A DNA stretch of 64,000 nucleotides, taken from positions 1,983,001 to 2,047,000 of the forward strand of contig NZ_AP023423.1 in the NCBI RefSeq assembly GCF_021654335.1. Direction: 5' to 3'. Below are positions 1,079 through 16,430 of this stretch, piece by piece. Both the position numbers and the translations under genes were made by a program. Origin of the DNA: Sideroxyarcus emersonii (GTDB lineage: Bacteria; Pseudomonadota; Gammaproteobacteria; Burkholderiales; Gallionellaceae). The notes beneath the pieces were generated by a model that saw nothing but the letters and a program-made list of their open reading frames with translations, was not told the origin of the DNA and ran no database searches. Each line of letters begins with the position of its first letter. Within the stretch, counting starts at the first letter, position 1.

Positions 1079-1801
1079 TTAGTGCGACGCCCCCAGGTAC
1101 GCGGCCTTCACCGCCGGATCGTCCTTCAGCTGTTGCGCCGGCCCGTGGCAGGCGATGCGGCCGTTCTCCAGCACATAGCCGTAGTCGGCCACTTCCAGCG
1201 CAGCGGCGGCGAATTGCTCGACCAGCAGCATGGTGATGCCGCGCCCTTTCAGCTCGGCGATGATGCGGAACACCTCGTTCACCAGCAGCGGGGCCAGGCC
1301 CATGGACGGCTCGTCCAGCAGCAGCACTTCCGGATTGAGCATCAGCGCGCGCCCCATGGCGAGCATCTGCTGTTCGCCGCCGGAGAGCGTGCCGGCCTGC
1401 TGGCTGGCGCGTTCCTTCAGGCGCGGGAACAGCTCGAACACGCGTGCCAGGTCGCCCTGCACATCGCCGCGCTCGCGGCCGAAGGTCAGGCGCGGGAAGG
1501 CGCCCAGCAACAGGTTGTCGGTCACCGACAGGGTGGCGAACACGCGCCGCCCCTCGGGCGAATGGGCCAGCCCGGCGCGGGCGATCTTGTTGGAGGAAAG
1601 GCCGGTGATGGCTTTGCCGTTCAGCATGATGCTGCCGCCCGAGGGCTTGATCATGCCGGAGATCGCGCGCATGGTCGTGGTCTTGCCCGCACCGTTGGAA
1701 CCGATGAGGGTCACGACTTTGCCTTTCGGCACCTCGAGCGAGATGTCGTGCAACACTTCCACTTTGCCGTAGGCCGCATGTAAATTCTGGATCTGTAACA
1801 T
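1079..1801 (-). CDS. livF: Branched-chain amino acid-type ABC transporter ATPase LivF
   Basis: Second ATP-binding subunit of a Liv/HAAT-type importer, 240 residues, usual length. Walker A GSNGAGKTT is at about residues 34-42, the signature LSGGEQ precedes Walker B LLLDEP, and the family ending is typical. I chose the ATG beginning MLQIQNLH because homologues start there; 12 further residues are open upstream but look non-coding. It follows the livMG stop by 10 bases and is in one operon with livK, livH and livMG. Liv-type importers carry branched-chain amino acids but also amides, urea and aromatic or hydroxy acids, so the ligand is open here. Confidence 0.93.
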   Translation of the reverse strand: MLQIQNLHAAYGKVEVLHDISLEVPKGKVVTLIGSNGAGKTTTMRAISGMIKPSGGSIMLNGKAITGLSSNKIARAGLAHSPEGRRVFATLSVTDNLLLGAFPRLTFGRERGDVQGDLARVFELFPRLKERASQQAGTLSGGEQQMLAMGRALMLNPEVLLLDEPSMGLAPLLVNEVFRIIAELKGRGITMLLVEQFAAAALEVADYGYVLENGRIACHGPAQQLKDDPAVKAAYLGASH

Positions 1802-1811
1802 CGTTAACTCC

Positions 1812-3755
1812 TCACGCTGTCTTGGCGCTGCCGCCAAGATAGGCTTCGATGACTTTCTCGTCGGACTGGACTGCCGCCGGTGTGCCTTCCGCGATCTTCT
1901 GGCCGAAGTCGAGCACCGTCACGGTATCGCAGATGCTCATCACCACATCCATGTGGTGCTCGATCAGGATCACGGTGATGCCATGGCTGCGGATCTTCTC
2001 GATCATCGAGATCAGTTCCTTGATGTCGGGCGCGGTCAGGCCGGCAGCCGGTTCGTCCAGCAGCAGCAGGCTCGGATTCAGCGCCAGCGCACGGGCGATC
2101 TCGAGCAGGCGCTGCTTGCCGTACGGCAGGTTGCGCGCCTCCTCGTTGGCGAGGTCGGCCAGGCCGACGAACTGCAGCAGGCTGGCGGCACGCACTTCCG
2201 CCGAATTCTTTTCCTTGCGGCAGCGCGGTGTCTGGAACACCACGTCGATCAGGCTGTGGCGAAAGGTGTGGTGCAGGCCGACCAGCACGTTCTCGATGGC
2301 GGTCATCTCGCCGAACAGCTGCACGTTCTGGAAGGTGCGCGCGATGCCCTCCCCGGCGATCGAAGAAGGCGTGGTGCCGGTGATGATCTTGCCGTTGAAC
2401 TCGATCTCGCCCGCGGTCGGGCTGTAGATGCCGGTCAGCACGTTCATGGTGGTGCTCTTGCCCGAACCGTTGGGTCCGATCAGGCCGTGCACGGAACCCT
2501 TCTTGATCTGCAGGTTGACGTCGTTCAGCGCTTTCAGGCCGCCGAACTGCATCACGATGTTGCGCGCCTCGAGCAGGAAGCCGTTGGAGGTGACCGGGTG
2601 GTCAGGCACGGCCCAGATATGCTGCTTGTCGCCGTGCTCCAGTATCTGCACATGGCGATGTATCCACTGCGGCCTGAATCGCACCACGATGCTACGCACG
2701 AAGCCCATGATGCCGTTCGGCAGGTAATACACCACGAACAGGATCATCACGCCGAAGATCGTCAGGCGGTGCTCGGAAATGTCGCTGATGAAGAATCCCG
2801 ACACGGCCAGCGAGATGGTGACGATCAGCGGCAGCGTGAGCTGCCTGACGCTGCGTATGCGCGCCGTTATCGCATAAGCGGCATACATCACCGTGATGAC
2901 GGCGATGCCGATCGAGATCTTGCGGAACAGGTCGATATCCGACAGCACGTTCGGCAGCATCACCACGATGATGGCCCCCAGGATCGGCCCGGTCCGCGTC
3001 TTGCGCCCGCCCATGATCACGGCCAGCAGGAACAGGATCGTCAGTTCGAAGTTGTAGGTGTTGGGCGAGATGTATTCTTCGGAATAGGTGAACAGGCTGC
3101 CTGCCAGGCCCGCCATCCCGGCGCTCAGCACGAAGGCGTAGACCTTGTAGGCATACACGCTGACACCCATGCAGTCCGACGCGATCGGGCTGTCGTGCAG
3201 GGCTTCGAAGGCGCGCCCCAGGTGCGACTTGAGTATGCGTTGCACGACGAACAGGGCCAGCACCAGCGCGACCAGCACGATGTAGTAATAGTCGGTACCG
3301 GTGATCTGGTGACCGAACCAGATCGGCTTGCGCACCGACAGGCCGAGCGGACCGTTGGTGAGGAAGGTCATCTCGTTGATCAATATCTGGATGATGGTGC
3401 CGAACGCCAGGGTCACCATCGCCAGATAGGGGCCGTTCACGCGCAAGGCCGGCAAGGCGAGGATGGCACCGAACAGGCCGGTGACGGCGATACTCGCCGG
3501 CACCGCCAGCAGGAACGGCACCGCCAGCTGGAAATGCAGCACCCCGGCGGTATAGGAGCCGATGCCGAACAGGGCGGCATGGCCCAGCGACACTTCGCCC
3601 ACATAGCCCACCACGATGTCCAGGCCCAGCAGCAGGATCGCGTAGATGCCTATCACCACCATCAGATGGATGTAGTAAGGATTCGGCCATACTGTCGGCA
3701 GCACTGCTGCGGCCGCAATGGCAAGAACGATGGAAATATTTTTGACCGCGCTCAT
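1812..3755 (-). CDS. livM-livG: Fused LivM permease - LivG ATPase
   Basis: A single 647-residue protein joins the LivM membrane permease (about residues 1-330, with the GYVGEVSLGHAALFGIG motif near the N-terminus) to the LivG ATPase (about 375-645). In the ATPase half, Walker A GPNGSGKST is at about 427-435, a variant signature NLPYGKQ near 543 and Walker B LLLLDEP near 563. These are usually two genes; the fusion forces a 1:1 ratio. The start MSAVKN was chosen because it lies 1 base after the livH stop. Neighbours livH and livF supply the other permease and ATPase. Confidence 0.93.
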   Translation of the reverse strand: MSAVKNISIVLAIAAAAVLPTVWPNPYYIHLMVVIGIYAILLLGLDIVVGYVGEVSLGHAALFGIGSYTAGVLHFQLAVPFLLAVPASIAVTGLFGAILALPALRVNGPYLAMVTLAFGTIIQILINEMTFLTNGPLGLSVRKPIWFGHQITGTDYYYIVLVALVLALFVVQRILKSHLGRAFEALHDSPIASDCMGVSVYAYKVYAFVLSAGMAGLAGSLFTYSEEYISPNTYNFELTILFLLAVIMGGRKTRTGPILGAIIVVMLPNVLSDIDLFRKISIGIAVITVMYAAYAITARIRSVRQLTLPLIVTISLAVSGFFISDISEHRLTIFGVMILFVVYYLPNGIMGFVRSIVVRFRPQWIHRHVQILEHGDKQHIWAVPDHPVTSNGFLLEARNIVMQFGGLKALNDVNLQIKKGSVHGLIGPNGSGKSTTMNVLTGIYSPTAGEIEFNGKIITGTTPSSIAGEGIARTFQNVQLFGEMTAIENVLVGLHHTFRHSLIDVVFQTPRCRKEKNSAEVRAASLLQFVGLADLANEEARNLPYGKQRLLEIARALALNPSLLLLDEPAAGLTAPDIKELISMIEKIRSHGITVILIEHHMDVVMSICDTVTVLDFGQKIAEGTPAAVQSDEKVIEAYLGGSAKTA

Positions 3756-3756
3756 G

Positions 3757-4629
3757 CTATACCTTTTTGATGACAGACTTGCCGAACATGCCGGCCGGCT
3801 TGATCGCCAGTACCAGCAACAGCAACAACAATCCCGGCACATCCTTGTAGCCGGTCGAGACGTAGTATCCGGTGGTGGTCTCGGCGATGCCCAGGATCAG
3901 GCCGCCCACGATCACGCCCATGCCGCTGTTCAATCCGCCGATGATGGCGACCGCAAAGGCCTTCAGGCCGAGTACCACGCCCATGGTGGCGCCGGTCAGC
4001 GTCAGCGGCGCCACCAGCACGCCGGCGAAGGCCGCAGTCATCGAGCTCAGCGCGTAGGAGAACGTGATCACCATGCCGGTGTTGATCCCCATCAGCCCGG
4101 CTGCATCGCGGTCGTTGGAAGTGGCCACCACGGCCTTGCCGTAGATGGATTTGCGGTTGAACAGCTCGACGGCGAGCATGATCGCCAGCGCGCCCACCAC
4201 CACCAGTATCTCCATCGGCAGCACGCGGATGCCCATGAACTGCAACGGCTCCGTCGGCAACGGCGACGGGAAGGTGATGTCGTCATGTCCCCAGATGTTC
4301 TCGGCGACGTTCTTGAAAATGATGGCCAGCGAGATCGTGGTCATGATCCAGCCGAATTCCGATTTTGTCTTGATCGCGGGCTGCACGCCGACGCGTTCCA
4401 CAAAGATGCCCTGCAAGGCGCCGAACACCAGCACCAGCGGGATCATCAGCCAGTAGCTCATGTGCCCGACCAGCGTGAGGCCGACCAGCGCGCCCAGCAT
4501 CAATGCCTCGCCCTGGCCGAAGTTCAGCGTTCCCGAGGTGGCGAAAGTCAGCTGATAGCCGAATGCGATCAGCGCGTAGATCATCCCGAGGGCGATACCG
4601 CTGACGATGAGTTGTGCGAGGATTTCCAT
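3757..4629 (-). CDS. livH: Branched-chain amino acid-type ABC transporter permease LivH
   Basis: Inner-membrane permease of the Liv/HAAT importer, 290 residues with about eight hydrophobic segments. The N-terminus MEILAQLIVSGIALGMIYAL and the segment GTLNFGQGEALMLGA are typical of LivH. The start was set at the ATG giving MEILAQ; eight more residues are open upstream but fall outside the family. It begins about 80 bases after livK, past a strong stem-loop, and ends 1 base before livMG, so coupled translation with livMG is likely. Confidence 0.93.
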   Translation of the reverse strand: MEILAQLIVSGIALGMIYALIAFGYQLTFATSGTLNFGQGEALMLGALVGLTLVGHMSYWLMIPLVLVFGALQGIFVERVGVQPAIKTKSEFGWIMTTISLAIIFKNVAENIWGHDDITFPSPLPTEPLQFMGIRVLPMEILVVVGALAIMLAVELFNRKSIYGKAVVATSNDRDAAGLMGINTGMVITFSYALSSMTAAFAGVLVAPLTLTGATMGVVLGLKAFAVAIIGGLNSGMGVIVGGLILGIAETTTGYYVSTGYKDVPGLLLLLLVLAIKPAGMFGKSVIKKV

Positions 4630-4653
4630 ATGTAGTGCTCCATCCGTTTGCAA

Positions 4654-4680
4654 TTTGGGCCGGGGGAAACCCGGCCCAAA
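4654..4680 (-). promoter_or_regulatory. Strong stem-loop between livK and livH
   Basis: A perfect 11-bp inverted repeat (TTTGGGCCGGG and CCCGGCCCAAA, 5-base loop) lies just after the livK stop. Such hairpins after binding-protein genes commonly protect the upstream mRNA segment or partly stop transcription, so that the binding protein is made in excess over the membrane parts. On the minus strand the 3' arm is followed by only a few T residues, so it is at most a leaky terminator. Confidence 0.6.
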
Positions 4681-4712
4681 TGCGAATTACCAAGTCATTG
4701 CACCGGCACCAA

Positions 4713-5930
4713 TTACTTCTTGGCCTTGCCCGATGCTTTTTCGCGCACCGCGTTGGCCTTGTCGGCCGCGTTGGCGTATACCACATGGCCGTCCTTGACC
4801 TGCCCCATCACCACCATGTTCATGGTGATGGCCTCGTGGTCGTCATGCGTATAGGGATGGTCGTATGTGGTGACGACGCCGTCGACTTTCTCCTGCAGGT
4901 TCTCCAGTGCCTGACGGATCTTCACGCCATCGGTATCTCCCGCCTGCTTGATGGCTGCTGCCAGGATGTACATCGAGTCGTAGCCCTGGGCTGCCGACAC
5001 CGGCGAAGGAATGCGGCCATTGGGCGGATTGTAGGCCTGCTGGTACGCTGCGATGAAAGCCTTGCGCTTGGGCGTGTTCGGCTCCTGGATGAAGGTCTGC
5101 GGCATGCGTGCGCCTTCGCCATTCTTGCCGGCGTTGTCGATGAAGTTGGCCATGGACAAGGTCCAGCTGCCGATCATCGGCACCTTCCAGCCCAGCTTCT
5201 CCATGCCGTTGGCGATCTGCGCCAGCTCGGGTCCGATGGCATAGGTCAGGATCGCCTGTGCGCCGGCTTCCTTGGCCTTGAGCAGCTGCGCGGTCATGTC
5301 CACGTCCTTGACGTTGAACTTCTCCACTGCGACCGGCTTGATGTTCTTGGCTGCCAGCGCCTTTTCCAGGTCTTCGCGGCCCAGCTGTCCATAGTTGGTG
5401 GAGTCGGCCAGGATTGCGACCTTGGTGTATTTGTTGACGTCGATGGCCTCCCGCACAATCATTGCCGACTGGATGGTGTCGTTGGCGGCATTGCGGAAGA
5501 TGTAGTTATCGGGAAACTCCGGCGGCAGGAACTGCTTGGTCACCAGCGAACCGGTGGAAACGTTGTTGATCACCGGGATCCTGGCTTCCTCGTAGAAGCG
5601 CTGCGAGGCCAGCGAAACGCCGGTATTGATGTAGCCCACCGTGGCGACGACGTGCTCCTTGTTGATCAGCTCCTGCGCCACCTGCACGCCGCGGTCGTTC
5701 TGCGCCTGGTCATCGCGCTCGACCAGCTCGATCTTGCGTCCGAGGATACCGCCCTTGGCGTTGATCTCGGCGGCAGCCAGCCTGACGCCGTCGCGCATGG
5801 AAGCGCCCATCGGGCTGGAACCGCCGGTGTAAGGACCGGAGACGCCGATCTTGATCGAATCGGCAGCGAACGCGCTGCAGGATGCTGCAAACGCCAATAC
5901 GGCAACGACAGGCATTGTTCTAATGTTCAT
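4713..5930 (-). CDS. livK: Liv-type ABC transporter periplasmic substrate-binding protein
   Basis: Type I periplasmic binding protein of the leucine/HAAT family, 405 residues. A Sec signal peptide covers about residues 1-22, with cleavage after AFA in SAFAADSIKIG. The mature protein starts with the family hallmark IGVSGPYTG and runs into PMGASMRDGVRLAAAEINAKGG. The start codon has a strong GGGAGA ribosome site. It heads the liv operon and sits 114 bases downstream of the DUF1537 kinase gene on the same strand, which links the importer to that catabolic module. The ligand cannot be read from the sequence. Confidence 0.92.
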   Translation of the reverse strand: MNIRTMPVVAVLAFAASCSAFAADSIKIGVSGPYTGGSSPMGASMRDGVRLAAAEINAKGGILGRKIELVERDDQAQNDRGVQVAQELINKEHVVATVGYINTGVSLASQRFYEEARIPVINNVSTGSLVTKQFLPPEFPDNYIFRNAANDTIQSAMIVREAIDVNKYTKVAILADSTNYGQLGREDLEKALAAKNIKPVAVEKFNVKDVDMTAQLLKAKEAGAQAILTYAIGPELAQIANGMEKLGWKVPMIGSWTLSMANFIDNAGKNGEGARMPQTFIQEPNTPKRKAFIAAYQQAYNPPNGRIPSPVSAAQGYDSMYILAAAIKQAGDTDGVKIRQALENLQEKVDGVVTTYDHPYTHDDHEAITMNMVVMGQVKDGHVVYANAADKANAVREKASGKAKK

Positions 5931-6044: not shown

Positions 6045-7370
6045 TCAACGTTGATGGCCAGTCAGCCTGCCATATGCCGTTGCTACCGCATGATCGTCCC
6101 CGACGTTGCCCGGAAAAATGACCACAGGCAGGTCAGGGTAACGCGGATGATCGGACGGACAGCATACTACCGAACACCCGGGCAGTATCTGCCCGACCAC
6201 GCGCGAGGTTCGCAAGGCCAGCCCCGAGCTCAGCACATCGTTGGATGTGATGCCGCCCTTGCTGATCAGGAAACCCAGCGTCCGCGGCAGGTTGCGCACC
6301 ACGTCCATCAGGAACGCGGACACCATTTCGCCGAATGCCAGCCGCGCCGCCTGGTCGGGGAACACTTTTTCCAGGCGGCTGGTAAACACCACCGGGGTGA
6401 ATCCCGCCGCATGATTCTGCTCGCACAGCCGCACGATCTCCGCCAATAGCATATCGCGTCTTGCAGGCAACAACTCGACGTTGACCTCGATGGGGGTGAT
6501 GCCCGGCATCTTCAGCAACTGCTCGAGCTGCAGGGTGGTCTTTTTGACGTGCGAGCCGACGATGACCGCGCCCGGCTTGCCGCCGCGCACATAGCGCGCC
6601 ATGTCCTGGGCCGCCACCGGCTGCGTCGGCAGGCCCGCCAGCGCGGTCAGCAGGCTGGCCGCACTGCGGAACAGGAAACGCTTGCCCTGGCCGGCCGCCA
6701 GGCGCAACTGCCCGGCAAAATGGTTCAGGTCGCCCTGCGTTTCGGCATCAACGACGCAGCACGCATTGCCGTGCAATTGCATCAGGCGCGGCAGGCTGTC
6801 GCCGCGCACGTCCGCCAGCAGGAAGCGTTCGACCTGCGCGGCCCGGATGCGCCCGCCGGTCTTCTCCTCGACGTAGGCGGGCAGATAGCTGTGGCGGTAG
6901 CCGAACACCGAGTCGCGCGCGAACTCGGTCTCGTGCACCGGCACCGGCTGGCCCTGCACCATCAGGTAATGCACGCTGTCGCGCGTGACGCGCCCGCCTT
7001 CGAAGAACGCGGGCACCAGGAAGTGCGCATCGAACGGACCCAGCTCTTCCGCGATCACATCCGTCTCCACCGGGTAGTGGCCGCGCAGCGTCGAATCCGA
7101 ACGGCTGACCAGGATGGGATTGATGTCGCGCCCGTCCTGCTTCAGCTCGGCCAGCACCTGCTTCAGGTTGCGGCATACCTCGCGCGTGATGTCCGCCGCC
7201 GGCCTTGCCGCCATGCCGCGGGTGTTGGTCAGCACGAAGAACAGCGGCGAATCGTCCAGCACCGCCTCGCGCAGGGTCGCCGCATCCCAGCGCGTCAGCA
7301 GCAGGCAGCTATGCACCGTCTGCGATCCCGTGGGATCGTCATCCAGTACGATGATCTTGGTTTCAGCCAT
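6045..7370 (-). CDS. Four-carbon acid sugar kinase family protein (DUF1537)
   Basis: A 441-residue kinase of the DUF1537 family (SBD_N plus NBD_C domains), whose described members (OtnK, DtnK, LtnK) phosphorylate 3-oxo-tetronates, D-threonate, erythronate and related acid sugars. The N-terminal hallmark DDDPTGSQTVH is at about residues 10-20, the substrate motif SRSDSTLRGHYP near 105-116, and the C-terminal nucleotide domain has SKGGITSNDVL. The gene is 48 bases downstream of the ThDP-enzyme gene. The usual partners (PdxA2-type dehydrogenase, class II aldolase/decarboxylase OtnC, OtnI isomerase) are not next to it, so the substrate and next step are open. Family call is firm; substrate is unknown. 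Confidence 0.88.
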   Translation of the reverse strand: MAETKIIVLDDDPTGSQTVHSCLLLTRWDAATLREAVLDDSPLFFVLTNTRGMAARPAADITREVCRNLKQVLAELKQDGRDINPILVSRSDSTLRGHYPVETDVIAEELGPFDAHFLVPAFFEGGRVTRDSVHYLMVQGQPVPVHETEFARDSVFGYRHSYLPAYVEEKTGGRIRAAQVERFLLADVRGDSLPRLMQLHGNACCVVDAETQGDLNHFAGQLRLAAGQGKRFLFRSAASLLTALAGLPTQPVAAQDMARYVRGGKPGAVIVGSHVKKTTLQLEQLLKMPGITPIEVNVELLPARRDMLLAEIVRLCEQNHAAGFTPVVFTSRLEKVFPDQAARLAFGEMVSAFLMDVVRNLPRTLGFLISKGGITSNDVLSSGLALRTSRVVGQILPGCSVVCCPSDHPRYPDLPVVIFPGNVGDDHAVATAYGRLTGHQR

Positions 7371-7418: not shown

Positions 7419-9623
7419 TCATCCCGCCATCGCCTTCACGCGCTTGGCCATCGCTTCGCCGGTCAGGCCGTTGAATTCCATGATCTCGGCCGGGCTGGCC
7501 GTCGTCTCGCCGCGCTTCCACGCGAAGGTGTCCCGCTTGGCCGCACGGGTGCGCAACAGCACCGGCTCCAGCACGGCACTCGGTCCGCCGCTCACCGCCA
7601 GCAACGCATCGCCGTCGAACAGCGCGTTGAAATGCGCGTCATCCATGAACTTGTTGTCCGGCTCCGCCACGGTGTCCCACGCGATGTCGGTGGGACGGTA
7701 CAGGCAGCGCGGGTTCACCACCGCGACGATGCGCACCTTGTAGCCATCGGCCTCCAGCTTGTCCCTGGCCTCGAACACCGGCAGGAACACCATGTCGCCG
7801 GTGACTGCGAATACCACCGTGCCCTTGCTGCCGCTCTTGCTTTCATAGATCACCGCCGCGCCCGTTTCCACCGCATTGCGGGCCTCTTCCACGCTCATGT
7901 AGACCGGCAACGGGCTCTTGGAAGCGATGATCACCATGCACTTGTTGAAGCTGTTGGTGGCGTAATCGTAGGCAGCCTGGATCGCGTTCGCATCGCACGG
8001 GAACAACGGATAGGTGTTGCCGTTGCGCATCTGCGCGGCGAAATAGTTCTCGATCTCGGGACGCTGGTGCGTCCAGCCGTTGCGCCCCTGCTCCAGTGCG
8101 CCCGCGGTGAACATGGTCACGATGGAAGGCGTCTTGCGGCGCAGTTCGGCCATCGCCTGGGTCACCGTCTGCACGATGGGCCAGCCGTTGATCGCGAAGC
8201 TCTCGTACGACAGCCACAGGGCGCGCGAACCGAACAGGGCCAATGCAGACGCCAAGCCGGCGCAGGCATCCTCGTTCAGCGGCTCGTAAACCTGGCCGTC
8301 CGGCATCTGGTTGTAGAGCGGATCGACGGTCGGATGGCGAATCTTCAGCGCGTCGTTGATGTTCTTCATCGCCGACGCTTCGTTGCCGTCGGCATTGGTC
8401 ACCACGAAACGCCTGTCCTGGGTGCCCACGTAGGCTACCAGCGCGCCCATCGCGGTGGCCGGCACCGCCTTCTCGCCCTTGGCGTATTCATGGATCGGCA
8501 TCTTGCCGAGCGGGGCCATGTCCAGCACATGCTCGGTGACCGCGGTCCTGACCGCGGGACCGCCGCCGGCGCGCACAAAGTTCTCGCGCACGATGGTCCA
8601 TGCCTCCGGCGGCAGCGCGCGGCGCTTCAGGCCTTCGATCATGTGCGGCTTGTCCAGGCTGTCGGCCGGGTACAGGTTGTGCGACTTGGCGCCCACCGTA
8701 TGCACGCCGGTGCCTTTCATCTGCTTGATGATGAAGGCCGTCAGGGTGCCGCCCAGCGCCGACTTCGCGGCCTTGTCCACGCCTTTCAGCACGGCGGCGG
8801 CGAACGCCAGGCGCTGCTTGTGCGAGAAGTACGAGCTGTCCGCATAGGCGCTCGGCTGGTTGGTGTCGTCGAATTCCTTGGCATCGACCAGCACCACCTC
8901 CTTGAAACCGTGCCCCTTCCAGTAAGCGATCATCTCTTCGTTGGTAAAGCGCGACACCATGGAATGGTGCTCCTGGCTGTAACCGTTCCAGATCAGCGTC
9001 GGCAGGAAGTTGGTCACCTTGGGGTATGCAGTGTTGAAGTGCATCATCGAATTGAGCACGTAGGGCTCACCCATGCCGCCGTCGCCGATGGTGACCGGGA
9101 ACAGCTTGCCCGGGTGCAGCAGGGCGCCGGCCATCGCAAAATGCTGGCCCTGCCCCAGCGGGCCGGCGGGTGCCAGCAGCCCCGGAATCGCACCCGACAG
9201 GTGGCCAAGCAGGCCGTGCTTTTCGCGGAAGCGCGCCATCAGTTCGGTGACGTTCGTGATGCCCATCGACTCGAGCGAGGTGTCGAGGAACATCGCGCTG
9301 TAGAATCCGGGCGCATGGTGTCCGACCTCGGTCACGATGTTGGTGTGCCCCAGCATCACCAGCGAAGCGTAGGCCTCGGCGCTGCTGGCGAAACCGCCGG
9401 GATGCCCCGAACCTTTCGAGCCGCAGGTCTGCAGCGTCAGGTAGCGCAAGGCGTCCGCCATCAACAGCGTCTGATACGCAGCATCGGCCGCGCCGGCATC
9501 GCCGATCGCCGACTGGCCCTCCTTGATCACCGCCGCCTTGGCATGCTGGGAGAACCCCTCCCAGGCCGGGCCGAAATATTGAATACCTTCACAAAACTTG
9601 GGTGCAGCGGCTGTCATGGTCAT
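7419..9623 (-). CDS. Divergent phosphoketolase/transketolase-family thiamine-diphosphate enzyme
   Basis: A 734-residue ThDP-dependent enzyme that does not fall cleanly into transketolase or phosphoketolase. The N-terminal domain has GHPGG (73-77), GPLGQG (154-159, transketolase-like) and a ThDP/Mg site starting GDGGMG (180) and ending at Asn213 in WNGYSQ; that spacing of about 30 residues is phosphoketolase-like. The middle domain has the conserved Glu474 in LSYESFA and the phosphoketolase-like NGWTHQRPEIENYF (515-528). The expected reaction is cleavage of a ketose or 2-hydroxy-ketone with either phosphorolysis or transfer of a two-carbon unit. It is divergent from iclR and upstream of the DUF1537 kinase. 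A GGAG ribosome site supports the start. Confidence 0.75.
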   Translation of the reverse strand: MTMTAAAPKFCEGIQYFGPAWEGFSQHAKAAVIKEGQSAIGDAGAADAAYQTLLMADALRYLTLQTCGSKGSGHPGGFASSAEAYASLVMLGHTNIVTEVGHHAPGFYSAMFLDTSLESMGITNVTELMARFREKHGLLGHLSGAIPGLLAPAGPLGQGQHFAMAGALLHPGKLFPVTIGDGGMGEPYVLNSMMHFNTAYPKVTNFLPTLIWNGYSQEHHSMVSRFTNEEMIAYWKGHGFKEVVLVDAKEFDDTNQPSAYADSSYFSHKQRLAFAAAVLKGVDKAAKSALGGTLTAFIIKQMKGTGVHTVGAKSHNLYPADSLDKPHMIEGLKRRALPPEAWTIVRENFVRAGGGPAVRTAVTEHVLDMAPLGKMPIHEYAKGEKAVPATAMGALVAYVGTQDRRFVVTNADGNEASAMKNINDALKIRHPTVDPLYNQMPDGQVYEPLNEDACAGLASALALFGSRALWLSYESFAINGWPIVQTVTQAMAELRRKTPSIVTMFTAGALEQGRNGWTHQRPEIENYFAAQMRNGNTYPLFPCDANAIQAAYDYATNSFNKCMVIIASKSPLPVYMSVEEARNAVETGAAVIYESKSGSKGTVVFAVTGDMVFLPVFEARDKLEADGYKVRIVAVVNPRCLYRPTDIAWDTVAEPDNKFMDDAHFNALFDGDALLAVSGGPSAVLEPVLLRTRAAKRDTFAWKRGETTASPAEIMEFNGLTGEAMAKRVKAMAG

Positions 9624-9757: not shown

Positions 9758-10525
9758 ATGCGAAAAATGAAAAAAGAATCGAATTCCATCCAGGTGATCG
9801 ACCGCATGTCGCAATTGTTCGATGCGATCGCGATGCACGAAGAGCCGGTGAGCCTGAAGATCCTCTCGGCCGAGACGGGGCTGCACCCGTCCACCGCCTT
9901 CCGCATCCTGTCTTCGCTGGCCGAGCACGGCTTCGTGGAACGCACCACGCGCGGCAACTATCAGCTGGGCATCAGGCTGATGCAGCTGGGCAGCCGCGTC
10001 AGCACCGGGGTCGACATCAGGAAGATCGCGCTGCCCCTGATGGAAGGGCTGCGCAACCAGCTGGGCGAAACGGTCAACCTGACCGTGCGCGAAGGCGACG
10101 AGGTGGTGTACATCGAACGCGCGCTGGCCAAACGCATGATCCGCGTGGAACAGGTGATCGGCAGCCGCGCCCCCCTGCATGTGACGGCGGTGGGCAAGAT
10201 GATGCTGGGCGAACAGGGTGAAGCGGCCTGCCGCAGCTATGCCAAACGCAACAAGCTGGCCGCGTACACCCCCAACACCCTGACCAAGGTCACGTCGCTC
10301 GCACAGGACTGCATCGCCTCGGCAAAGCGGGGGTACGCGCTCGACAACGAAGAGGCCGAGTTGGGCGTGGGATGCATCGGGACCCTGGTACGCGATGCCA
10401 GCGGCCACGTCGTCGCCGGGCTGTCCGTTTCCGCCCCCATCGAGCGCCGCAAACGCGAATGGATCGCCCAGGTCATGGAAACCGGCGAGCAGCTGTCGGC
10501 CCAGCTCGGCTACCGGCCCGCCTGA
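9758..10525 (+). CDS. IclR-family transcriptional regulator
   Basis: A 255-residue IclR-type regulator. The N-terminal winged helix (about 10-75) contains SLKILSAETGLHPSTAFRIL, and the C-terminal IclR effector domain (about 85-250) contains GETVNLTVREGDEVVYIER and LTVTAVGK-like segments. IclR proteins usually control an adjacent catabolic operon and sense a small acid made in it. It is divergent from the ThDP-enzyme gene with overlapping promoters, and leads the GlcG-lutABC-aminotransferase genes, so it is the likely switch for the whole island. The ATG has no clear ribosome site; a second ATG three codons later is possible. Confidence 0.9.
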   Translation: MRKMKKESNSIQVIDRMSQLFDAIAMHEEPVSLKILSAETGLHPSTAFRILSSLAEHGFVERTTRGNYQLGIRLMQLGSRVSTGVDIRKIALPLMEGLRNQLGETVNLTVREGDEVVYIERALAKRMIRVEQVIGSRAPLHVTAVGKMMLGEQGEAACRSYAKRNKLAAYTPNTLTKVTSLAQDCIASAKRGYALDNEEAELGVGCIGTLVRDASGHVVAGLSVSAPIERRKREWIAQVMETGEQLSAQLGYRPA

Positions 10526-10571: not shown

Positions 10572-10991
10572 ATGAAACAGAAAAATTGCCTGACGCTTGC
10601 GGATGCAAAAATCATCGCATCGGGTTGTGAAAGCGCTGCACTCGAACAAGGCTGGGCCGTGGCCATCGCCGTCGTCGACGACGGCGGGCATCCGATGTGG
10701 CTGCAACGGCTGGATGACGCACCGCTGACCAGCACGGATATCGCCATCGGCAAGGCGCGTACCTCGGCGCTGGGGCGCCGCACCTCCAAGGCCTACGAAG
10801 ACATGGTGAGCAACGGTCGCGTGGCCGTCATGTCCATGCCCGGCGACCTCACCTTCCTGGAAGGCGGGGAACCTGTCGTGGTCGCCGGCGAAGTGGTGGG
10901 GGCAGTAGGCGTCTCCGGCGTCAAATCCGCCGAGGATGCGCAAGTCGCACGTGCCGGCATCGGCGCCCTGCTTGCCAGCCTGCAACACTGA
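10572..10991 (+). CDS. GlcG/HbpS-family protein
   Basis: A 139-residue protein of the GlcG/HbpS (DUF336) family. The family hallmarks AVVDDGGHPMWLQRLD (about 35-50) and ALGRRTS are present. Members occur in glycolate (glc) and glycerol/propanediol operons; HbpS binds haem in Streptomyces, while GlcG's role is unsettled. The ATG was chosen for the AAGGAACGA ribosome site just upstream. It lies 46 bases after iclR and 63 before lutA, suggesting one transcript. Its presence beside lutABC and a glyoxylate aminotransferase fits 2-hydroxy-acid metabolism. Confidence 0.82.
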   Translation: MKQKNCLTLADAKIIASGCESAALEQGWAVAIAVVDDGGHPMWLQRLDDAPLTSTDIAIGKARTSALGRRTSKAYEDMVSNGRVAVMSMPGDLTFLEGGEPVVVAGEVVGAVGVSGVKSAEDAQVARAGIGALLASLQH

Positions 10992-11054
10992 ACTCACGTC
11001 GGCTTAGGCGTATAGTTGCAGCCTGCCGAACCAGACCATCCGGAGAACACAACG

Positions 11055-11783
11055 ATGCGAGTAGGATTTTTCGTCACCTGCCTGGTTGACACCATGCGCC
11101 CCAGCATAGGCTTCGCTTCCCTGAAACTGCTGGAAGCAGCCGGTTGCGAAGTGATCGTTCCCGAGCACCAGACCTGCTGCGGACAGCCCGGATACAATTC
11201 GGGCGACCACGAGTCCGCCCGGGCCATGGCGCTGAAATTCCTCGCCGAGTTCGAAGCGTTCGACTATGTGGTGCTGCCTTCCGGCTCCTGCGCCGGCATG
11301 GTCCGCGTGCACTACCCCGACCTGTTCAAGAACGATCCCGACCTGTCGGCAAGATTCGCCGCCCTGGCGCAGCGCACCTACGAGCTGACCGATTTCCTGC
11401 ACCGGGTCGCCAGACTGGAAAAGGCGCCCGGCACCTTCCGGGGCACGGTGACCTATCACGACTCCTGCTCCGGCCTGCGCGAGCTCGATGTCTACAAGCA
11501 GCCGCGGGCGCTGCTGGCCACCATGCCGGACGTCAAGCTGCAGGAGATGGTGGAATCGACCACCTGCTGCGGTTTCGGCGGGACGTTCTCGCTCAAGTAC
11601 GGCGAGCTGTCGACGCGCATGGCCGACAACAAATGCCAGCACATCACCGCCGCCGGCGCGGACGCGATCGTCGGCGGCGACCTCGGCTGCCTGCTGAACA
11701 TCGAAGGCCGCCTGCGCCGCACCGGCGACCATGCCACCCGCGTGCTGCACGTTGCGGAAGTGCTGTCCGGCGAGGAGAAGTGA
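11055..11783 (+). CDS. lutA: Lactate utilisation Fe-S protein LutA (LldE)
   Basis: A 242-residue CCG-domain protein, first subunit of the LutABC (LldEFG) complex that oxidises L-lactate to pyruvate, with electrons passed through Fe-S clusters to the respiratory chain. The two cysteine-rich CCG motifs are EHQTCCGQPGYNSG (about 38-51) and TTCCGFGGTFS (about 173-183). The start MRVGFFVTCLVD is the family N-terminus. The stop overlaps the lutB start (TGATG). No lactate permease is nearby, so the actual hydroxy-acid may come in through the Liv importer or the AEC carrier. Confidence 0.92.
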   Translation: MRVGFFVTCLVDTMRPSIGFASLKLLEAAGCEVIVPEHQTCCGQPGYNSGDHESARAMALKFLAEFEAFDYVVLPSGSCAGMVRVHYPDLFKNDPDLSARFAALAQRTYELTDFLHRVARLEKAPGTFRGTVTYHDSCSGLRELDVYKQPRALLATMPDVKLQEMVESTTCCGFGGTFSLKYGELSTRMADNKCQHITAAGADAIVGGDLGCLLNIEGRLRRTGDHATRVLHVAEVLSGEEK

Positions 11784-13189
11784 TGCAGAACAACGCCATC
11801 GATTTCAAGCGCCAGGTCACCGTCAAGCTGGCCGACATCAAGCTGCAGGGCGCGCTGTCGCGGCTGCAGTCCCGTTTCGTCGAAGGACGCTCCGCAGTCA
11901 TCAGCGAAATCGCCGACCTGCCGGAGACGCGCAACGCCGCAGCGGCGATCCGCGACCGCGTGCTGAACGACCTGGAACACTGGCTGCTGCAATTCGAGCA
12001 ACAGGCAACGGCGCGCGGTGCGATCGTGCACTGGGCCGAGACCGGCGAGGACGTGAACCGCATCGTCGCCGAGATCGCCAGGCAGCACAGCGTGCGCACG
12101 GCGGCGAAATCGAAGTCCATGGTGAGCGAAGAGTGCGGGCTGAACGACGCGCTGGAACAGGCCGGCGTCGAGGTGATGGAGACCGACCTGGGCGAATATA
12201 TCCTGCAGCTGGCGCACGAAGCGCCTTCGCACATCGTCGCGCCGGTCGTGCACAAGAACAAGGAAGAGGTCGCCGACCTGTTCGCGGAAAAACATCAGCT
12301 GCCGCGCAAGACCGGGATCGCCGAGCTGTGCCGCGAAGCGCGCGAGATCCTGCGCCCCGCTTTCCTGAATGCCGACATGGGCATCTCCGGCGCCAATTTC
12401 CTGGTGGCGGAGACCGGCTCCGCGCTGATCGTCACCAACGAAGGCAACGGCCGGCTGGTGACCACACTGCCGAGGGTGCATGTCGCCATCACCGGCATCG
12501 AGAAAGTGGTGCCGACGCTGGAAGACGTGAGCACGCTCCTGCGCCTGCTGCCCCGTTCGGCCACCGGCCAGTCCATCACCAACTATGTTTCCGTCCTGAC
12601 CGGAACCAGGGGCCGTGACGACCACGACGGCCCGGAACATTTCCACATCGTCCTGCTCGACAACGGCCGCAGCAAACTGCTCGGCAGCGAGATGCAGGAA
12701 ATGCTGCGCTGCATCCGCTGCGGCGCCTGCATGAACCATTGCCCGGTCTACCAGAACATCGGCGGCCATGCCTATGGCTGGGTGTATCCCGGACCGATGG
12801 GTTCGATACTCACGCCGCTGCTATCCGGCCTGGAAAAATCGCCGGACCTGCCCAACGCCTCGACCTTCTGCGGCGCCTGCGCGGCAGTATGCCCGGTCAA
12901 GATCCCCCTGCCCGACCTGTTGCGCAAACTGCGCGAGAAGCAGATGGAGCGCGGCATGAAGTCGCACCGGGAGACGTTCATGCTCAAGGCCTGGGCATGG
13001 CTGGCACTCCGTCCGAACCTGTATGCGCTGGCAACCCGGATCGCCGTGCGCGGCATGCGGCTGCTGGGCGGCAAGGAAGGGCTGCTGCATCGCCTGCCCG
13101 GCGCGCACGGCTGGAGCGATGGGCGCGACTTCCCGGCGCCGGCGGGACGGACCTTTCGGGAACTTTATCGACACGGGAGCCGCAAATGA
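11783..13189 (+). CDS. lutB: Lactate utilisation Fe-S protein LutB (LldF)
   Basis: A 468-residue LutB subunit with an N-terminal LUD domain (about 60-290) and two 4Fe-4S motifs, CIRCGACMNHCP (about 310-321) and CGACAAVCP (about 363-371). It carries electrons in the LutABC hydroxy-acid dehydrogenase. The start follows the lutA stop with a 1-base overlap, and its own stop overlaps the lutC start by 4 bases (ATGA), so the three are translationally coupled. The length is normal for the family. Confidence 0.93.
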   Translation: MQNNAIDFKRQVTVKLADIKLQGALSRLQSRFVEGRSAVISEIADLPETRNAAAAIRDRVLNDLEHWLLQFEQQATARGAIVHWAETGEDVNRIVAEIARQHSVRTAAKSKSMVSEECGLNDALEQAGVEVMETDLGEYILQLAHEAPSHIVAPVVHKNKEEVADLFAEKHQLPRKTGIAELCREAREILRPAFLNADMGISGANFLVAETGSALIVTNEGNGRLVTTLPRVHVAITGIEKVVPTLEDVSTLLRLLPRSATGQSITNYVSVLTGTRGRDDHDGPEHFHIVLLDNGRSKLLGSEMQEMLRCIRCGACMNHCPVYQNIGGHAYGWVYPGPMGSILTPLLSGLEKSPDLPNASTFCGACAAVCPVKIPLPDLLRKLREKQMERGMKSHRETFMLKAWAWLALRPNLYALATRIAVRGMRLLGGKEGLLHRLPGAHGWSDGRDFPAPAGRTFRELYRHGSRK

Positions 13190-13845
13190 ACGCGCGCGAC
13201 GCCATCCTCGGCAGGATACGAAATGCCCGCAGCGACAAGGGCCAGAGCTTGCAAGCCGCGGCCCCTGCAGATGCAATAGCCAGCCACCTCGCCCGACACC
13301 CGCGCGGCCCTGCGCCCGCGATGCCCGACGACCTGCCCGCACGTTTCAGGGAGCGCGCGCTCAAGCTGTCCAGCGACGTGCTGGAAACCGCCGACCGCAA
13401 GGAGGTGCCTGCATTGCTGGCGCGCTACCTGAACGAAAGGAAGCTGCCCCCCGGCGGCGTATGCTGGCCGTCGCTGATCGGCCTGCCCTGGAGCGGCGCC
13501 GGACTCGACATGCAGTCGCGCCCGGCCAGGGACAGCGACCTGGTCGGCGTGACCGGCGCGTTCTGCGCCATCGCGGAGACCGGCACGCTGATGCTGCTGT
13601 CGGGCGCGGAGACCCCGGCCACCACCAGCCTGTTGCCGGAGACCCATGTGGCCGTCATCGACCCGCGCCGCATCGTGGCGACCATGGAAGACGCATGGGA
13701 CCTGTTGCGCCGGGAATGCAAGCAACCGCCGCGCGCGGTCAACTTCGTGTCGGGGCCTTCGCGCACTGCCGATATCGAGCAGACCGTGACGCTGGGCGCA
13801 CATGGGCCTTACCGGGTGCTGCTGATCCTTGCACCCGCCCAATGA
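13186..13845 (+). CDS. lutC: Lactate utilisation protein LutC (LldG), LUD domain
   Basis: A 219-residue LUD-domain protein, third part of LutABC. The C-terminal LUD hallmark with GVTGAFCAIAETGTLML is at about 120-136, and the tail has HGPYRVLLILA. The N-terminus MNARDAILGRIRNA is typical. It starts in a 4-base overlap with lutB. A small hairpin follows the stop before the aminotransferase gene. Confidence 0.92.
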   Translation: MNARDAILGRIRNARSDKGQSLQAAAPADAIASHLARHPRGPAPAMPDDLPARFRERALKLSSDVLETADRKEVPALLARYLNERKLPPGGVCWPSLIGLPWSGAGLDMQSRPARDSDLVGVTGAFCAIAETGTLMLLSGAETPATTSLLPETHVAVIDPRRIVATMEDAWDLLRRECKQPPRAVNFVSGPSRTADIEQTVTLGAHGPYRVLLILAPAQ

Positions 13846-13873: not shown

Positions 13874-13898
13874 TTTCCGGGCAGCCGTTGCCCGGGAA
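13874..13898 (+). promoter_or_regulatory. Stem-loop between lutC and the aminotransferase gene
   Basis: Arms TTTCCGGGCA and TGCCCGGGAA pair over 10 positions (one G-T) around a 5-base loop. No T-run follows, so it may be an attenuator or mRNA-stability element rather than a terminator. Confidence 0.4.
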
Positions 13899-13935
13899 TA
13901 CACTTGACCGCAGAGCAGACTGGAAAGGGAGACAC

Positions 13936-15117
13936 ATGAAAATAAAATCATTTCATCCACCTCAACGCGTCCTGATGGGACCCGGCCCTTCGGATGTCAG
14001 CCCCCGTGTGCTGGCTGCGATGGCGCGCCCCACCATCGGCCATCTCGATCCGAAGTTCGTCGAGCTGATGGACGAAATGAAATCCCTGCTGAAATACGCG
14101 TTCCAGACCCAAAACGAACTGACCATGCCGGTCTCCGCACCCGGTTCCGCCGGCATGGAGACCTGCTTCGTCAACCTGGTGGAGCCGGGCGACAAGGTCG
14201 TGGTGTGCCAGAACGGCGTGTTCGGCGGACGCATGCAGGAGAACGTCGAGCGCTGCGGCGGCATCGCCGTGATGGTGCAGGACGACTGGGGTCGCGCGGT
14301 CGATCCGCAAAAGCTGGAAGATGCGCTGAAAGCCAATCCGGATGCCAAGGTCGTGGCGTTCGTGCACGCGGAGACCTCCACCGGCGCGCTGTCCGATGCG
14401 CAGGCGCTGGTCGAAGTGGCGCACCGCCACGGCTGCCTGACCATCGTCGACGCGATCACCTCGCTGGGCGGCTCGCCGGTCATGGTCGATGCATGGGACA
14501 TCGACGCGATCTATTCCGGCACGCAGAAATGCCTGTCCTGCACGCCCGGCCTCTCGCCCGTCAGTTTCAGCCCGAGGGCGCAGGAGAAGATCAGGAACCG
14601 CAAGAGCAAGGTGCAGAGCTGGTTCATGGACCTCAACCTGGTGATGGGTTACTGGGGCGGTGCGACCAAGCGCGCCTACCATCACACCGCACCGATCAAC
14701 GCGCTGTATGGCCTGCATGAGGCGCTGGTGATGCTGCAGGAGGAAGAGCTGGAAAACGCCTGGGCGCGCCATCAGCGTAACCACCTGGCGCTGCGCGCCG
14801 GGCTGGAAGCGATGGGGCTGGATTTCGTCGTGCCGGAAAACGAACGCCTGCCGCAGCTGAACGCGATCTCCGTGCCGCAAGGCGTGGACGAAGCCGCCGT
14901 GCGTGCGCTGCTGCTGTCCGATTACCAGCTGGAGATCGGTGCCGGCCTCGGCGCAATGGCCGGAAAGGTGTGGCGCATCGGCCTGATGGGACACGCCAGC
15001 AACCCGCGCAACGTGCGTCTGTGCCTGGGCGCGCTGGACGATGTGCTTGGCCGCATGCAGGCACCGATCACGCGCGGCGTCGCAGTGGATGCGGCGAACC
15101 TGCACCTGGCTGCCTGA
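13936..15117 (+). CDS. Serine/alanine-glyoxylate aminotransferase (class V)
   Basis: A 393-residue PLP enzyme very close to the AGT/serine-glyoxylate aminotransferase group, which makes glycine from glyoxylate while turning serine to hydroxypyruvate or alanine to pyruvate. The N-terminal GPGPSDV is near residue 16, the segment YAFQTQN near 54, the PLP lysine Lys198 in YSGTQKCLS, and the C-terminal GGLG-like motif appears as GAGLGAMAGKVWRIGLMG. I chose the ATG at MKIKSFHPP because of its AAAGGGA ribosome site. It follows lutC by 90 bases. Beside glycerate 2-kinase it would feed hydroxypyruvate toward glycerate, although no hydroxypyruvate reductase is in the window. Confidence 0.87.
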   Translation: MKIKSFHPPQRVLMGPGPSDVSPRVLAAMARPTIGHLDPKFVELMDEMKSLLKYAFQTQNELTMPVSAPGSAGMETCFVNLVEPGDKVVVCQNGVFGGRMQENVERCGGIAVMVQDDWGRAVDPQKLEDALKANPDAKVVAFVHAETSTGALSDAQALVEVAHRHGCLTIVDAITSLGGSPVMVDAWDIDAIYSGTQKCLSCTPGLSPVSFSPRAQEKIRNRKSKVQSWFMDLNLVMGYWGGATKRAYHHTAPINALYGLHEALVMLQEEELENAWARHQRNHLALRAGLEAMGLDFVVPENERLPQLNAISVPQGVDEAAVRALLLSDYQLEIGAGLGAMAGKVWRIGLMGHASNPRNVRLCLGALDDVLGRMQAPITRGVAVDAANLHLAA

Positions 15118-15155: not shown

Positions 15156-16430
15156 TTACCCGGTGACGAGTATGGCGCGGAAGTCGTTCACATTGGTCAG
15201 CGTGGGTCCGGTGACGAGGGAATCGCCCAGCGCCCGAAAGAAGCCGTGCCCATCGTTGCGCGCCAGGCTGTCGGCCGGCCGGATGCCTTGCGCCCAGGCG
15301 CGGGCGAGCGTATCGGGCGCAAGATAAGCGCCGGCGATCTCCTCGCTGCCGTCGACGCCATCGGTATCGCCCGCGATCGCATGGATACCCGGCTCGCCTT
15401 GCAGAGCGATGCCGAGAGACAACAGGAACTCGACGTTTCTCCCGCCGCGACCGTCGCCGCGCACAGTCACCGTGGTCTCGCCGCCGGACAGCAGCACGCA
15501 CGGCGGCCGGAACGGCTGCCCGCGCCGGCTCACCTGCAACGCGATCCCGGCCATGACCTTGCCCACATCGCGCGCCTCACCCTCGATCGAATCGCCCAAG
15601 ATATGGCATGCGATGCCGTGATTGCGGGCCACAGTGGCAGCCGCCTCCAGCGCCATCTGCGGCGTGGCAATCAGGTGCGTCTCTATCGCAGGCAACCGCT
15701 CATCGCCGGGCTTGATCGACTCGCCTGCGCCGCTTGCCAGCAGGTCGATCACCCGCTGCGGGACATCGATGGCATAGCGGCGCAGGATGGCGAGCGCCTC
15801 GCTGCAGGTGCTGGCATCGGCGAGGGTCGGGCCCGAGGCGATGTCGGCCGGGTTGTCCCCGGGCACATCCGAGATGATCAGGTTCACCACACGCGCCGGA
15901 TGGCAGGCGGCGGCCAAACGGCCGCCCTTGATCGCCGACAGATGGCGGCGCACGCAATTCATCTCCGCGATGGTAGCGCCGCTCTTGAGCAGATTGCGAT
16001 TGATCGCCTGCTTGTCCTCCAGCGACAGCCCGGCGGCCGGCAACGGCAGCAGCGACGAACCGCCGCCGGAAATCAGGCAAAGCACCAGGTCGTCGGCGGT
16101 GAGGCCCGCAACGAGTTCGAGCATGCGCCTGCTGGCCGCCTCTCCCGCCTGGTCCGGCACCGGGTGCGCGGCCTCCACGATCTCGATGTGTTGGCACGGC
16201 ACCGCGTAGCCGTAACGGGTGACAACGAGCCCTTCGAGTCGGGACGGCCAGCAGTTTTCCACCGCGCGCGCCATCGCCGCCGACGCCTTGCCGGCACCGA
16301 TGACGACCAAGCGGCCTTGCGGCGGCTGCGGCAGATACCGGGGAATGCACACATCGGGCTGGGCCGCGGCGACGGCTGCGGAAAACATGTGCTGCAACAG
16401 TTCGCGCGGATTCATCTGTCCCTTATTCAT
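15156..16430 (-). CDS. Glycerate 2-kinase (MOFRL family, GckA/TtuD)
   Basis: A 424-residue enzyme of the DUF4147-MOFRL family, which phosphorylates D-glycerate to 2-phosphoglycerate; older annotations call it hydroxypyruvate reductase TtuD. The N-terminal GKASAAMARAVE is at about 50-61, the nucleotide stretch LISGGGSSLLPLP near 120, and the C-terminal MOFRL domain has LSGGETTVTVRGDGRGGRN and GDTDGVDG. Two starts are possible; I used the ATG at MNKGQMNP. It converges on the aminotransferase gene with only 38 bases between and is followed by the AEC carrier upstream on the same strand. Confidence 0.88.
   Translation of the reverse strand: MNKGQMNPRELLQHMFSAAVAAAQPDVCIPRYLPQPPQGRLVVIGAGKASAAMARAVENCWPSRLEGLVVTRYGYAVPCQHIEIVEAAHPVPDQAGEAASRRMLELVAGLTADDLVLCLISGGGSSLLPLPAAGLSLEDKQAINRNLLKSGATIAEMNCVRRHLSAIKGGRLAAACHPARVVNLIISDVPGDNPADIASGPTLADASTCSEALAILRRYAIDVPQRVIDLLASGAGESIKPGDERLPAIETHLIATPQMALEAAATVARNHGIACHILGDSIEGEARDVGKVMAGIALQVSRRGQPFRPPCVLLSGGETTVTVRGDGRGGRNVEFLLSLGIALQGEPGIHAIAGDTDGVDGSEEIAGAYLAPDTLARAWAQGIRPADSLARNDGHGFFRALGDSLVTGPTLTNVNDFRAILVTG

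Follow-up and report, generated by a model that had tools for sequence, protein, structure and literature searches.

A phosphoketolase-like enzyme paired with a DUF1537 kinase in carbon-fixing bacteria and cyanobacteria, and its possible role in glyoxylate salvage

Introduction

Phosphoketolases and transketolases, both dependent on thiamine diphosphate (ThDP), are the closest described relatives of the enzyme reported here. For phosphoketolase, the residues H64, H97, H142, H320, E479, Y501, Q546, N549 and H553 have been listed as catalytic (PMC10547157), while recognition of the sugar phosphate has been attributed to Q321, S541, H548 and K605, with S440 and R442 in the same pocket (PMC12012885). 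In cyanobacteria, the product of a second gene, pket2 or xfp2, is treated as a putative phosphoketolase isozyme (PMC7744508, PMC4609045, PMC9034593, PMC11257934). One such gene, alr1850, is labelled as a transketolase or as a phosphoketolase region (PMC4915528, PMC8147232), and the activity of another, sll0529, has been called unverified (PMC7744508). Kinases of the DUF1537 family are described as acting on four-carbon sugar acids of the 3-oxotetronate type, en route to dihydroxyacetone phosphate (DHAP) (PMC12540250).

Here, we analyzed a stretch of 64,000 nucleotides from Sideroxyarcus emersonii (NZ_AP023423.1, positions 1,983,001 to 2,047,000; hereafter the window), in which the gene of a ThDP-dependent phosphoketolase/transketolase-like enzyme is directly followed by that of a DUF1537 kinase (Table 1). 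Our comparisons support the placement of the enzyme in a third clade of the superfamily. It is probably part of a hitherto undescribed route by which a wasteful by-product of carbon fixation is recycled.

Results

Placement of the enzyme in the superfamily

The enzyme is encoded by a single open reading frame (ORF) with an ATG start on the minus strand, the original prediction having named no strand; it has 734 amino acids and occurs once in its own genome (one match at E 0.001). The original prediction had pointed to two transketolase-like motifs, GHPGG (residues 73-77) and GPLGQG, next to phosphoketolase-like features, namely a spacing of 30 residues between the GDG of the ThDP-binding motif and an asparagine (N213), the motif NGYSQ (213-217) and GWTHQRPEIENYF (516-528). 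All of these are present, with little or no variation. When the protein was aligned with 40 relatives (65-91% identical to it), GHPGG, GPLGQG, GDG, N213 and GWTHQRPE were invariant, and the sole variation in NGYSQ was between Tyr and Phe (33 and 8 sequences, respectively). Because they are conserved across these 41 sequences, the motifs are not a product of chance. The length is intermediate, as had likewise been noted: ORFs measured from stop to stop (E. coli TktA excepted) span 663-698 amino acids for transketolases and 797-849 for canonical phosphoketolases.

The enzyme passed the Pfam gathering scores of XFP (47.9 bits, threshold 22), XFP_N (35.8 bits, threshold 23.7) and, barely, XFP_C (25.4 bits, threshold 23.4). 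None of the curated NCBIfam cut-offs was reached, with 80-109 bits for the phosphoketolase models (cut-offs 777-1518) and 27-45 bits for the four transketolase models that matched (cut-offs 488-788). A phosphoketolase was the top sequence match in the PDB (90 bits). The AlphaFold model of the enzyme (pLDDT 83, pTM 0.86) also retrieved phosphoketolases best in a fold search, with Z scores of 36.8-38.3 for all but one of the 13 entries and of 32.0 for the last, compared to 31.3-31.7 for pyruvate dehydrogenase E1 and 29.1-32.1 for transketolases. The enzyme thus has the fold and the three Pfam domains of XFP phosphoketolases, yet it is only 16-19% identical to them in structural alignments, is shorter and stays far under all NCBIfam phosphoketolase cut-offs scored.

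For the final tree, 14 of the 41 aligned sequences were combined with 15 canonical phosphoketolases and 8 transketolases. The phosphoketolases are uncharacterized genome proteins, with one of 16 candidates dropped because it had no GHWG motif. L107 was left out of the tree, and rows that were fragments or in wrong frames (L109 and L111-L115, L114 being a phosphoketolase fragment) were left out of both the tree and the residue table. Phosphoketolases, transketolases and the enzyme group were each split off from the remaining sequences by a branch supported at 99-100%: both branches between the enzyme group and the 15 phosphoketolases were supported at 100/99, and the 8 transketolases were set apart at 100/100. 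Midpoint rooting puts the enzyme group nearer to phosphoketolase than to transketolase. The separate subclass that had been suggested is thereby supported; the enzyme does not nest inside the phosphoketolases with all phosphate ligands conserved. These results support a third, separate clade of the phosphoketolase/transketolase superfamily that lies nearer to phosphoketolase. An ordinary phosphoketolase or transketolase is ruled out by the tree, the curated cut-offs and the residue table.

Equivalents of all nine catalytic phosphoketolase residues are kept in the 14 tree rows and in the 41 aligned sequences. At the end of the pocket that recognizes the phosphate, K605 is kept, while Q321 is replaced by Asn, S541 by Ala and H548 by Arg in 41 of 41 sequences. 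In the tree rows, the position of His548 separates the three groups entirely, with Arg in 14/14 members of the enzyme group, His in 15/15 phosphoketolases and Glu in 8/8 transketolases. S440 and R442 map to A416/A418, G413/E415 or M419/N421 under three alignments and never to Ser or Arg. Five of six residues at the phosphate end are therefore changed relative to phosphoketolase. Since the catalytic residues are kept and those at the phosphate end are not, the end carrying out ThDP chemistry looks intact, whereas the far end of the substrate site looks remodeled. Tyr473, Gln512, Asn515 and Lys569, at sites that separate phosphoketolase from transketolase, are of the phosphoketolase type. The proposed mixture of signatures thus holds for the two sets of motifs but not for the active site. 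With transketolase (TktA) the enzyme shares GHPGG, GPLGQG, the ThDP-binding GDG and the catalytic His and Glu, but it has Asn, Ala and Lys at transketolase positions Asp469, His461 and Arg520 (which we take to be E. coli numbering).

Distribution of the enzyme

A scan of species genomes returned 153 relatives, which rules out an isolated oddity or artefact. The best 80 of these (64-98% identity in the best segment) belong, by record title, to Gallionella, Sideroxydans, Thiobacillus, Nitrotoga, Nitrosospira and Acidithiobacillus, to gammaproteobacterial sulfur-oxidizer genera, to filamentous cyanobacteria and to unclassified Proteobacteria. Judging from the genus names, they include oxidizers of iron, sulfur and nitrite besides the cyanobacteria. 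Counting the own genome each time, the enzyme was detected in 13 of 184 genomes of the class and 3 of 299 of the phylum. Among cyanobacteria, 124 of 146 genomes carry it at 60-68% identity (threshold: best E <1e-100). The 22 cyanobacterial non-carriers comprise 16 without a match and 6 whose only matches are weak and of the canonical phosphoketolase type. In 12 such genomes, a search for an additional transketolase that could take the enzyme's place found none, with a single match in each. Among the 13 class carriers, the gene runs across two contigs in one genome and is interrupted by an in-frame stop in another. The gene copy in genome G111 (C28:32524-34713) contains one in-frame TAA, through either decay or assembly error. 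In the plasmid collection, 146 records matched, all below 60% identity, and the 40 listed, at 22-25%, were mostly annotated as phosphoketolase.

All 13 class carriers encode RuBisCO (E <1e-136), as opposed to 88 of the 171 other genomes with any RuBisCO_large match (Fisher P = 3e-4; since the sampled genomes are related to each other, the Fisher values given here are only a guide). A canonical phosphoketolase (ORF of 765-839 amino acids) coexists with the enzyme in 10 of the 13 carriers, and in a set of 22 genomes that included 10 carriers, every genome has one classical transketolase of its own. The enzyme therefore looks like a stand-in for neither.

The partner kinase

Proteobacterial gene order was counted over 73 non-redundant loci that include the window, with the copy of the window (L001) left out. 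The kinase gene lies directly downstream of the enzyme gene on the same strand in 72 of them (median gap 52 bp, largest 530 bp); in the remaining locus, the contig stops 44 bp past the enzyme gene. The kinase family occurs in all 13 class carriers, where the two matches are on the same strand and less than 900 bp apart, versus 6 of 171 non-carriers (Fisher P = 9e-16). It was found in every one of the 146 cyanobacterial genomes, usually elsewhere in the genome than the enzyme; the two matches lie within 1.1 kb of each other in eight genomes (G317, G243, G331, G296, G276, G265, G250 and G217). All eight cyanobacterial genomes behind the loci studied have the kinase, one copy being partial with an in-frame stop. 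Kinase sequences from cyanobacterial carriers (41 rows; L130 gave none and was left out) are 59-69% identical to that of the window.

The partner kinase belongs to the same Pfam family as the 3-oxotetronate kinases OtnK and YgbK. In the kinase tree, by contrast, a very long branch with 100/100 support separates the YgbK type from the proteobacterial and cyanobacterial kinases (48 of 129 rows; because of long branches the placement is rough, and the count of the cyanobacterial group is inflated by two rows, Cy_L082 and Cy_L093, that are proteobacterial loci labelled as cyanobacterial). Scanned against NCBIfam, the window kinase gave no match to the OtnK model at E 0.001; its only kinase match was to D-threonate kinase (55.5 bits, cut-off 450).

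In the 22 cyanobacterial non-carriers, kinase scores were 140-176 bits in 19 genomes and at least 196 in 3, whereas full-length kinases from carriers reached 184 or more; the lower scores may reflect one lineage. Six of these kinases (L146-L151) were read and proved diverged, 34-44% identical to the window kinase; a diverged DUF1537 kinase is retained even in cyanobacterial genomes of 1.6-1.7 Mb. Two of the six adjoin genes for the oxidation of hydroxy acids. The neighbors in L149 are GlcE-like (134.5 bits, cut-off 284) and GlcF-like (242.7 bits, cut-off 333), both under the cut-off, and the neighbor in L147 is an FMN-dependent alpha-hydroxy-acid dehydrogenase with lactate dehydrogenase as top curated model (325.8 bits, cut-off 376).

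Other arrangements were also observed. In both L043 and L045, loci of Candidatus Nitrotoga, the ThDP gene is followed by a pair of DUF1537 kinase genes that belong to one cluster. In L157 (genome G180), a DUF1537 kinase directly adjoins a RuBisCO_large match (E 3.2e-72), an arrangement that presumably resembles the pairs of RuBisCO-like protein and kinase in apionate catabolism. The kinase of L159 (genome G095) is 40% identical to that of the window and sits on a long tree branch; its genome gave matches to neither the ThDP enzyme nor RuBisCO_large.

Genomic neighborhood

Table 1. Features of the enzyme locus, in window coordinates
Feature	Position	Strand	Basis
Liv-type (branched-chain-amino-acid) ABC transporter genes, downstream of the kinase	1079..5930	-	Binding protein, permeases, ATPases; order recurs in Gallionella-type loci
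DUF1537 (SBD_N + NBD_C) acid-sugar kinase, 441 aa, directly downstream of the enzyme	6045..7370	-	Pfam E 1.2e-55 and 1e-34, 189.2 and 120.9 bits
ThDP-dependent phosphoketolase/transketolase-like enzyme, P0002	7419..9623	-	ORF; Pfam XFP/XFP_N/XFP_C; tree; fold
Arg514, in place of phosphoketolase His548 (phosphate recognition)	8082..8084	-	R in 41/41
GDG of the ThDP-binding motif, residues 180-182	9078..9086	-	Translation and alignment
GPLGQG motif, residues 154-159	9147..9164	-	Invariant in 41/41 aligned sequences
Divergent IclR-family regulator	9758..10525	+	Best NCBIfam match BhcR, 173.6 bits, under cut-off 350
GlcG-like (HbpS-like) protein	10575..10991	+	Pfam HbpS-like 4.1e-34
LutA/LutB/LutC-like oxidoreductase genes	11016..13845	+	Pfam CCG; LUD_dom, Fer4_8, LutB_C; LUD_dom in the third; starts of second and third not fixed
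Class V aminotransferase	13888..15117	+	Best models pyridoxamine-pyruvate transaminase and BhcA, both under cut-off
Glycerate 2-kinase-like (DUF4147 + MOFRL)	15156..16478	-	229.7 bits, cut-off 550

The divergent regulator is present in 55 of the 65 loci with more than 900 bp upstream. Third among its 15 PDB relatives is AllR, the "negative regulator of allantoin and glyoxylate utilization operons"; both BhcR and AllR are, we presume, sensors of glyoxylate. Homologs of E. coli GlcD, GlcE and GlcF are encoded in 30, 23 and 27 of the 73 loci, and any of the three in 33, or in 25 of the 46 loci with more than 6 kb downstream. In 26 loci, glcD lies on the same strand at most 3.5 kb downstream, and the gene order there is IclR (divergent), ThDP enzyme, kinase, glcD, glcE, glcF. 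Gallionella-type loci, including the window, mostly have Liv transporter, GlcG-like and Lut-like genes in place of glcDEF. In the genome studied here, a set of same-strand genes lies just outside the window, beyond its start and within 17 kb of the enzyme gene: glcF, glcE and glcD (60, 53 and 73% identical to their E. coli counterparts), a malate synthase gene and glxR (52%).

The GlcG-like protein has E. coli GlcG as its best match, as in 12 loci besides the window and its copy. The aminotransferase and the glycerate 2-kinase-like gene recur in six loci each, the window included, which suggests a second outlet for glyoxylate in those loci. A search of window positions 1-20000 against Rfam gave nothing above the gathering score.

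Discussion

The subfamily, its pairing with a kinase, the glycolate genes near part of the loci and the carbon-fixing hosts are direct observations, the last three of them going beyond the original prediction; the substrates, the order of steps and the physiological role set out in this section are what we infer. A role of the enzyme-kinase pair in glycolate or glyoxylate metabolism appears likely. More specifically, the pair could well recycle the glyoxylate that arises from glycolate, a by-product of RuBisCO oxygenation, in organisms using the Calvin cycle. We put this forward tentatively, because the phosphoketolase-type QN loop (Gln512 and Asn515) and the changes at the phosphate end are also compatible with other donors or with acetyl-forming chemistry.

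Glycolate would be oxidized to glyoxylate by the glycolate dehydrogenase GlcDEF, whose genes are in the own genome and whose activity we take from its family. The ThDP enzyme would then form dihydroxyethyl-ThDP from a ketose donor, for which we favor xylulose 5-phosphate (Xu5P) or fructose 6-phosphate (F6P), with hydroxypyruvate as another candidate, and would move the two-carbon ketol unit to glyoxylate, yielding 2,4-dihydroxy-3-oxobutanoate (3-oxotetronate). The DUF1537 kinase would phosphorylate O4 of this compound, and the resulting beta-keto acid would lose CO2, spontaneously or with help, to give DHAP, which could re-enter the Calvin cycle. In sum, glyoxylate + Xu5P + ATP would be converted to glyceraldehyde 3-phosphate (GAP) + DHAP + CO2 + ADP. 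Ketol transfer to glyoxylate is proposed because no simpler reaction would connect a ThDP enzyme that forms ketols with glyoxylate and a DUF1537 kinase; a new ketol-related substrate, which had been raised as a possibility, is suggested by neighboring genes (kinase, glycolate oxidase). Loss of CO2 without an enzyme has a precedent in the product of PdxA, according to one account (PMC7954711).

This exact sequence of transfer, phosphorylation and decarboxylation to DHAP is possible, though we would not call it probable. With some doubt, we extend it to an undescribed photorespiratory pathway of phosphoglycolate salvage common to most of the cyanobacteria sampled and to many iron-, sulfur- and nitrite-oxidizing bacteria with a Calvin cycle, in which a glyoxylate ketoltransferase of phosphoketolase-like ancestry and a DUF1537 3-oxotetronate kinase would convert glyoxylate, together with a ketose of the Calvin cycle, to CO2 and two triose phosphates, with no amino-group chemistry involved. 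The glycerate pathway (Gcl-GlxR) and the malate cycle address the same proposed problem, the disposal of glyoxylate. Unlike in those, Gcl exceeds its curated cut-off in 0 of 13 carriers and malate synthase is present in only 5; however, Gcl is under the cut-off in 181 of 184 class genomes (3 above it), so that its absence discriminates little.

Several points weigh against glyoxylate salvage. Gln512, Asn515 and Tyr473 are phosphoketolase-type, which by sequence favors acetyl-forming chemistry over ketol transfer. With three of four phosphate-recognition residues changed and two pocket residues lost, a Xu5P or F6P donor is uncertain. No decarboxylase gene was recognized in the operon, and the route would cost more carbon than the known glycerate route. 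Of the 73 loci, 40 have no glcD, glcE or glcF, including 21 of the 46 with more than 6 kb downstream. GlcD matched above 500 bits in 13/13 carriers, yet 15 of the 20 controls (drawn from the 88 RuBisCO-matching class non-carriers) had such a match too, and the curated GlcD cut-off of 567.9 was passed by 2 of 13 carriers and 1 of 20 controls. An anticorrelation of malate synthase with the enzyme, which served as a test of the salvage idea, was not found among the 13 carriers (5 with the gene) and 20 controls (4 with it). The kinase occurs without the enzyme in 22 of 146 cyanobacteria, and so must have a role or a supplier there that does not need the enzyme. Synechocystis reportedly depends on high CO2 once three of its known glyoxylate routes are disrupted, which would argue against a strong additional route in that organism. 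Finally, a double deletion of sll0529 and slr0453 in Synechocystis is described as growing normally under photomixotrophic conditions at ambient CO2 (PMC9034593), which would be relevant if sll0529 were the gene of the enzyme.

The acetyl-forming chemistry just mentioned leads to a first alternative. The enzyme could be a diverged phosphoketolase whose product is still acetyl-phosphate but whose ketose substrate is unusual (short, acidic or unphosphorylated), and which provides acetyl-CoA for biosynthesis or for malate synthase. All nine phosphoketolase catalytic residues, including the equivalents of Y501, Q546 and N549, the closest fold and the malate synthase beside the locus in the own genome agree with it. 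We nonetheless regard it as unlikely: the phosphate end is changed, a canonical phosphoketolase is already there in 10 of 13 carriers, the acid-sugar kinase is left unexplained, and 8 of 13 carriers have no malate synthase. Anabaena Alr1850, possibly of the enzyme's own subfamily, reportedly has no phosphoketolase activity. In a published survey, the share with malate synthase is 0% for Acidithiobacillales and 2% for cyanobacteria with RuBisCO (PMC7486775).

The kinase can also be made the starting point. The pair might supply vitamin B6 by making 2-oxo-3-hydroxy-4-phosphobutanoate or 4-phosphohydroxythreonine and so fill missing Epd/PdxB steps. The B6 intermediate is an isomer of our proposed phosphorylated product, the kinase family is present in all cyanobacteria sampled, including genomes of 1.6-1.9 Mb, and DUF1537 members are reported to phosphorylate 4-hydroxythreonine (PMC7954711). 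A gap in cyanobacterial B6 synthesis has been described (PMC9997740); a DUF1537 kinase could fill it, which likewise tells against glyoxylate salvage. Against the B6 role, that source excepts gamma-, beta- and alphaproteobacteria from the groups in which the genes are missing. The role would also leave unexplained the association with RuBisCO among Proteobacteria, the BhcR-like IclR regulator and the neighboring glcDEF, malate synthase and glxR, and we consider it quite improbable. Catabolism of an external or damage-derived four-carbon sugar acid (threonate, erythronate), with the glycolate genes as incidental neighbors, would accord with the D-threonate kinase match, far under its cut-off as it is, with the Liv-type transporter in Gallionella-type loci and with a three-step L-threonate route that cyanobacteria are said to hold (PMC12540250, citing Guo 2024). 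Among proteins chosen from 82 loci, however, the threonate dehydrogenase, decarboxylase and isomerase YgbJ, YgbL and YgbM were never the best match over 60% of the length (GlxR-like proteins do resemble YgbJ, at 32% in the own genome), the carriers coincide with RuBisCO, and the threonate routes described in PMC12540250 give a ThDP ketolase no role. This makes such catabolism very unlikely in our view.

The enzyme is possibly the "second phosphoketolase" of cyanobacteria, sll0529/alr1850 (pket2/xfp2). Second phosphoketolases are said to cluster with fungal, bacterial and algal proteins (PMC7744508), which is no obvious fit with the enzyme group. A link of the enzyme, or of sll0529/alr1850, with a DUF1537 kinase or glycolate was not found in the open-licence literature of PubMed Central, and an earlier description elsewhere is possible.

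Little is settled about the fate of phosphoglycolate in chemolithoautotrophs, and in one survey, photorespiration in non-cyanobacterial microbes is described as not appearing specifically adapted to the Calvin cycle (PMC7895386). A two-gene module that goes with RuBisCO and often lies beside glycolate oxidase would fill this gap. If glyoxylate salvage is correct, it could give a function to a conserved phosphoketolase-like protein of cyanobacteria and to a kinase family that all of the sampled cyanobacteria possess, and it would offer a short natural route for the engineering of photorespiratory bypasses. Should the enzyme be the pket2/xfp2 of the literature, flux models in which it figures as a phosphoketolase isozyme would need revision.

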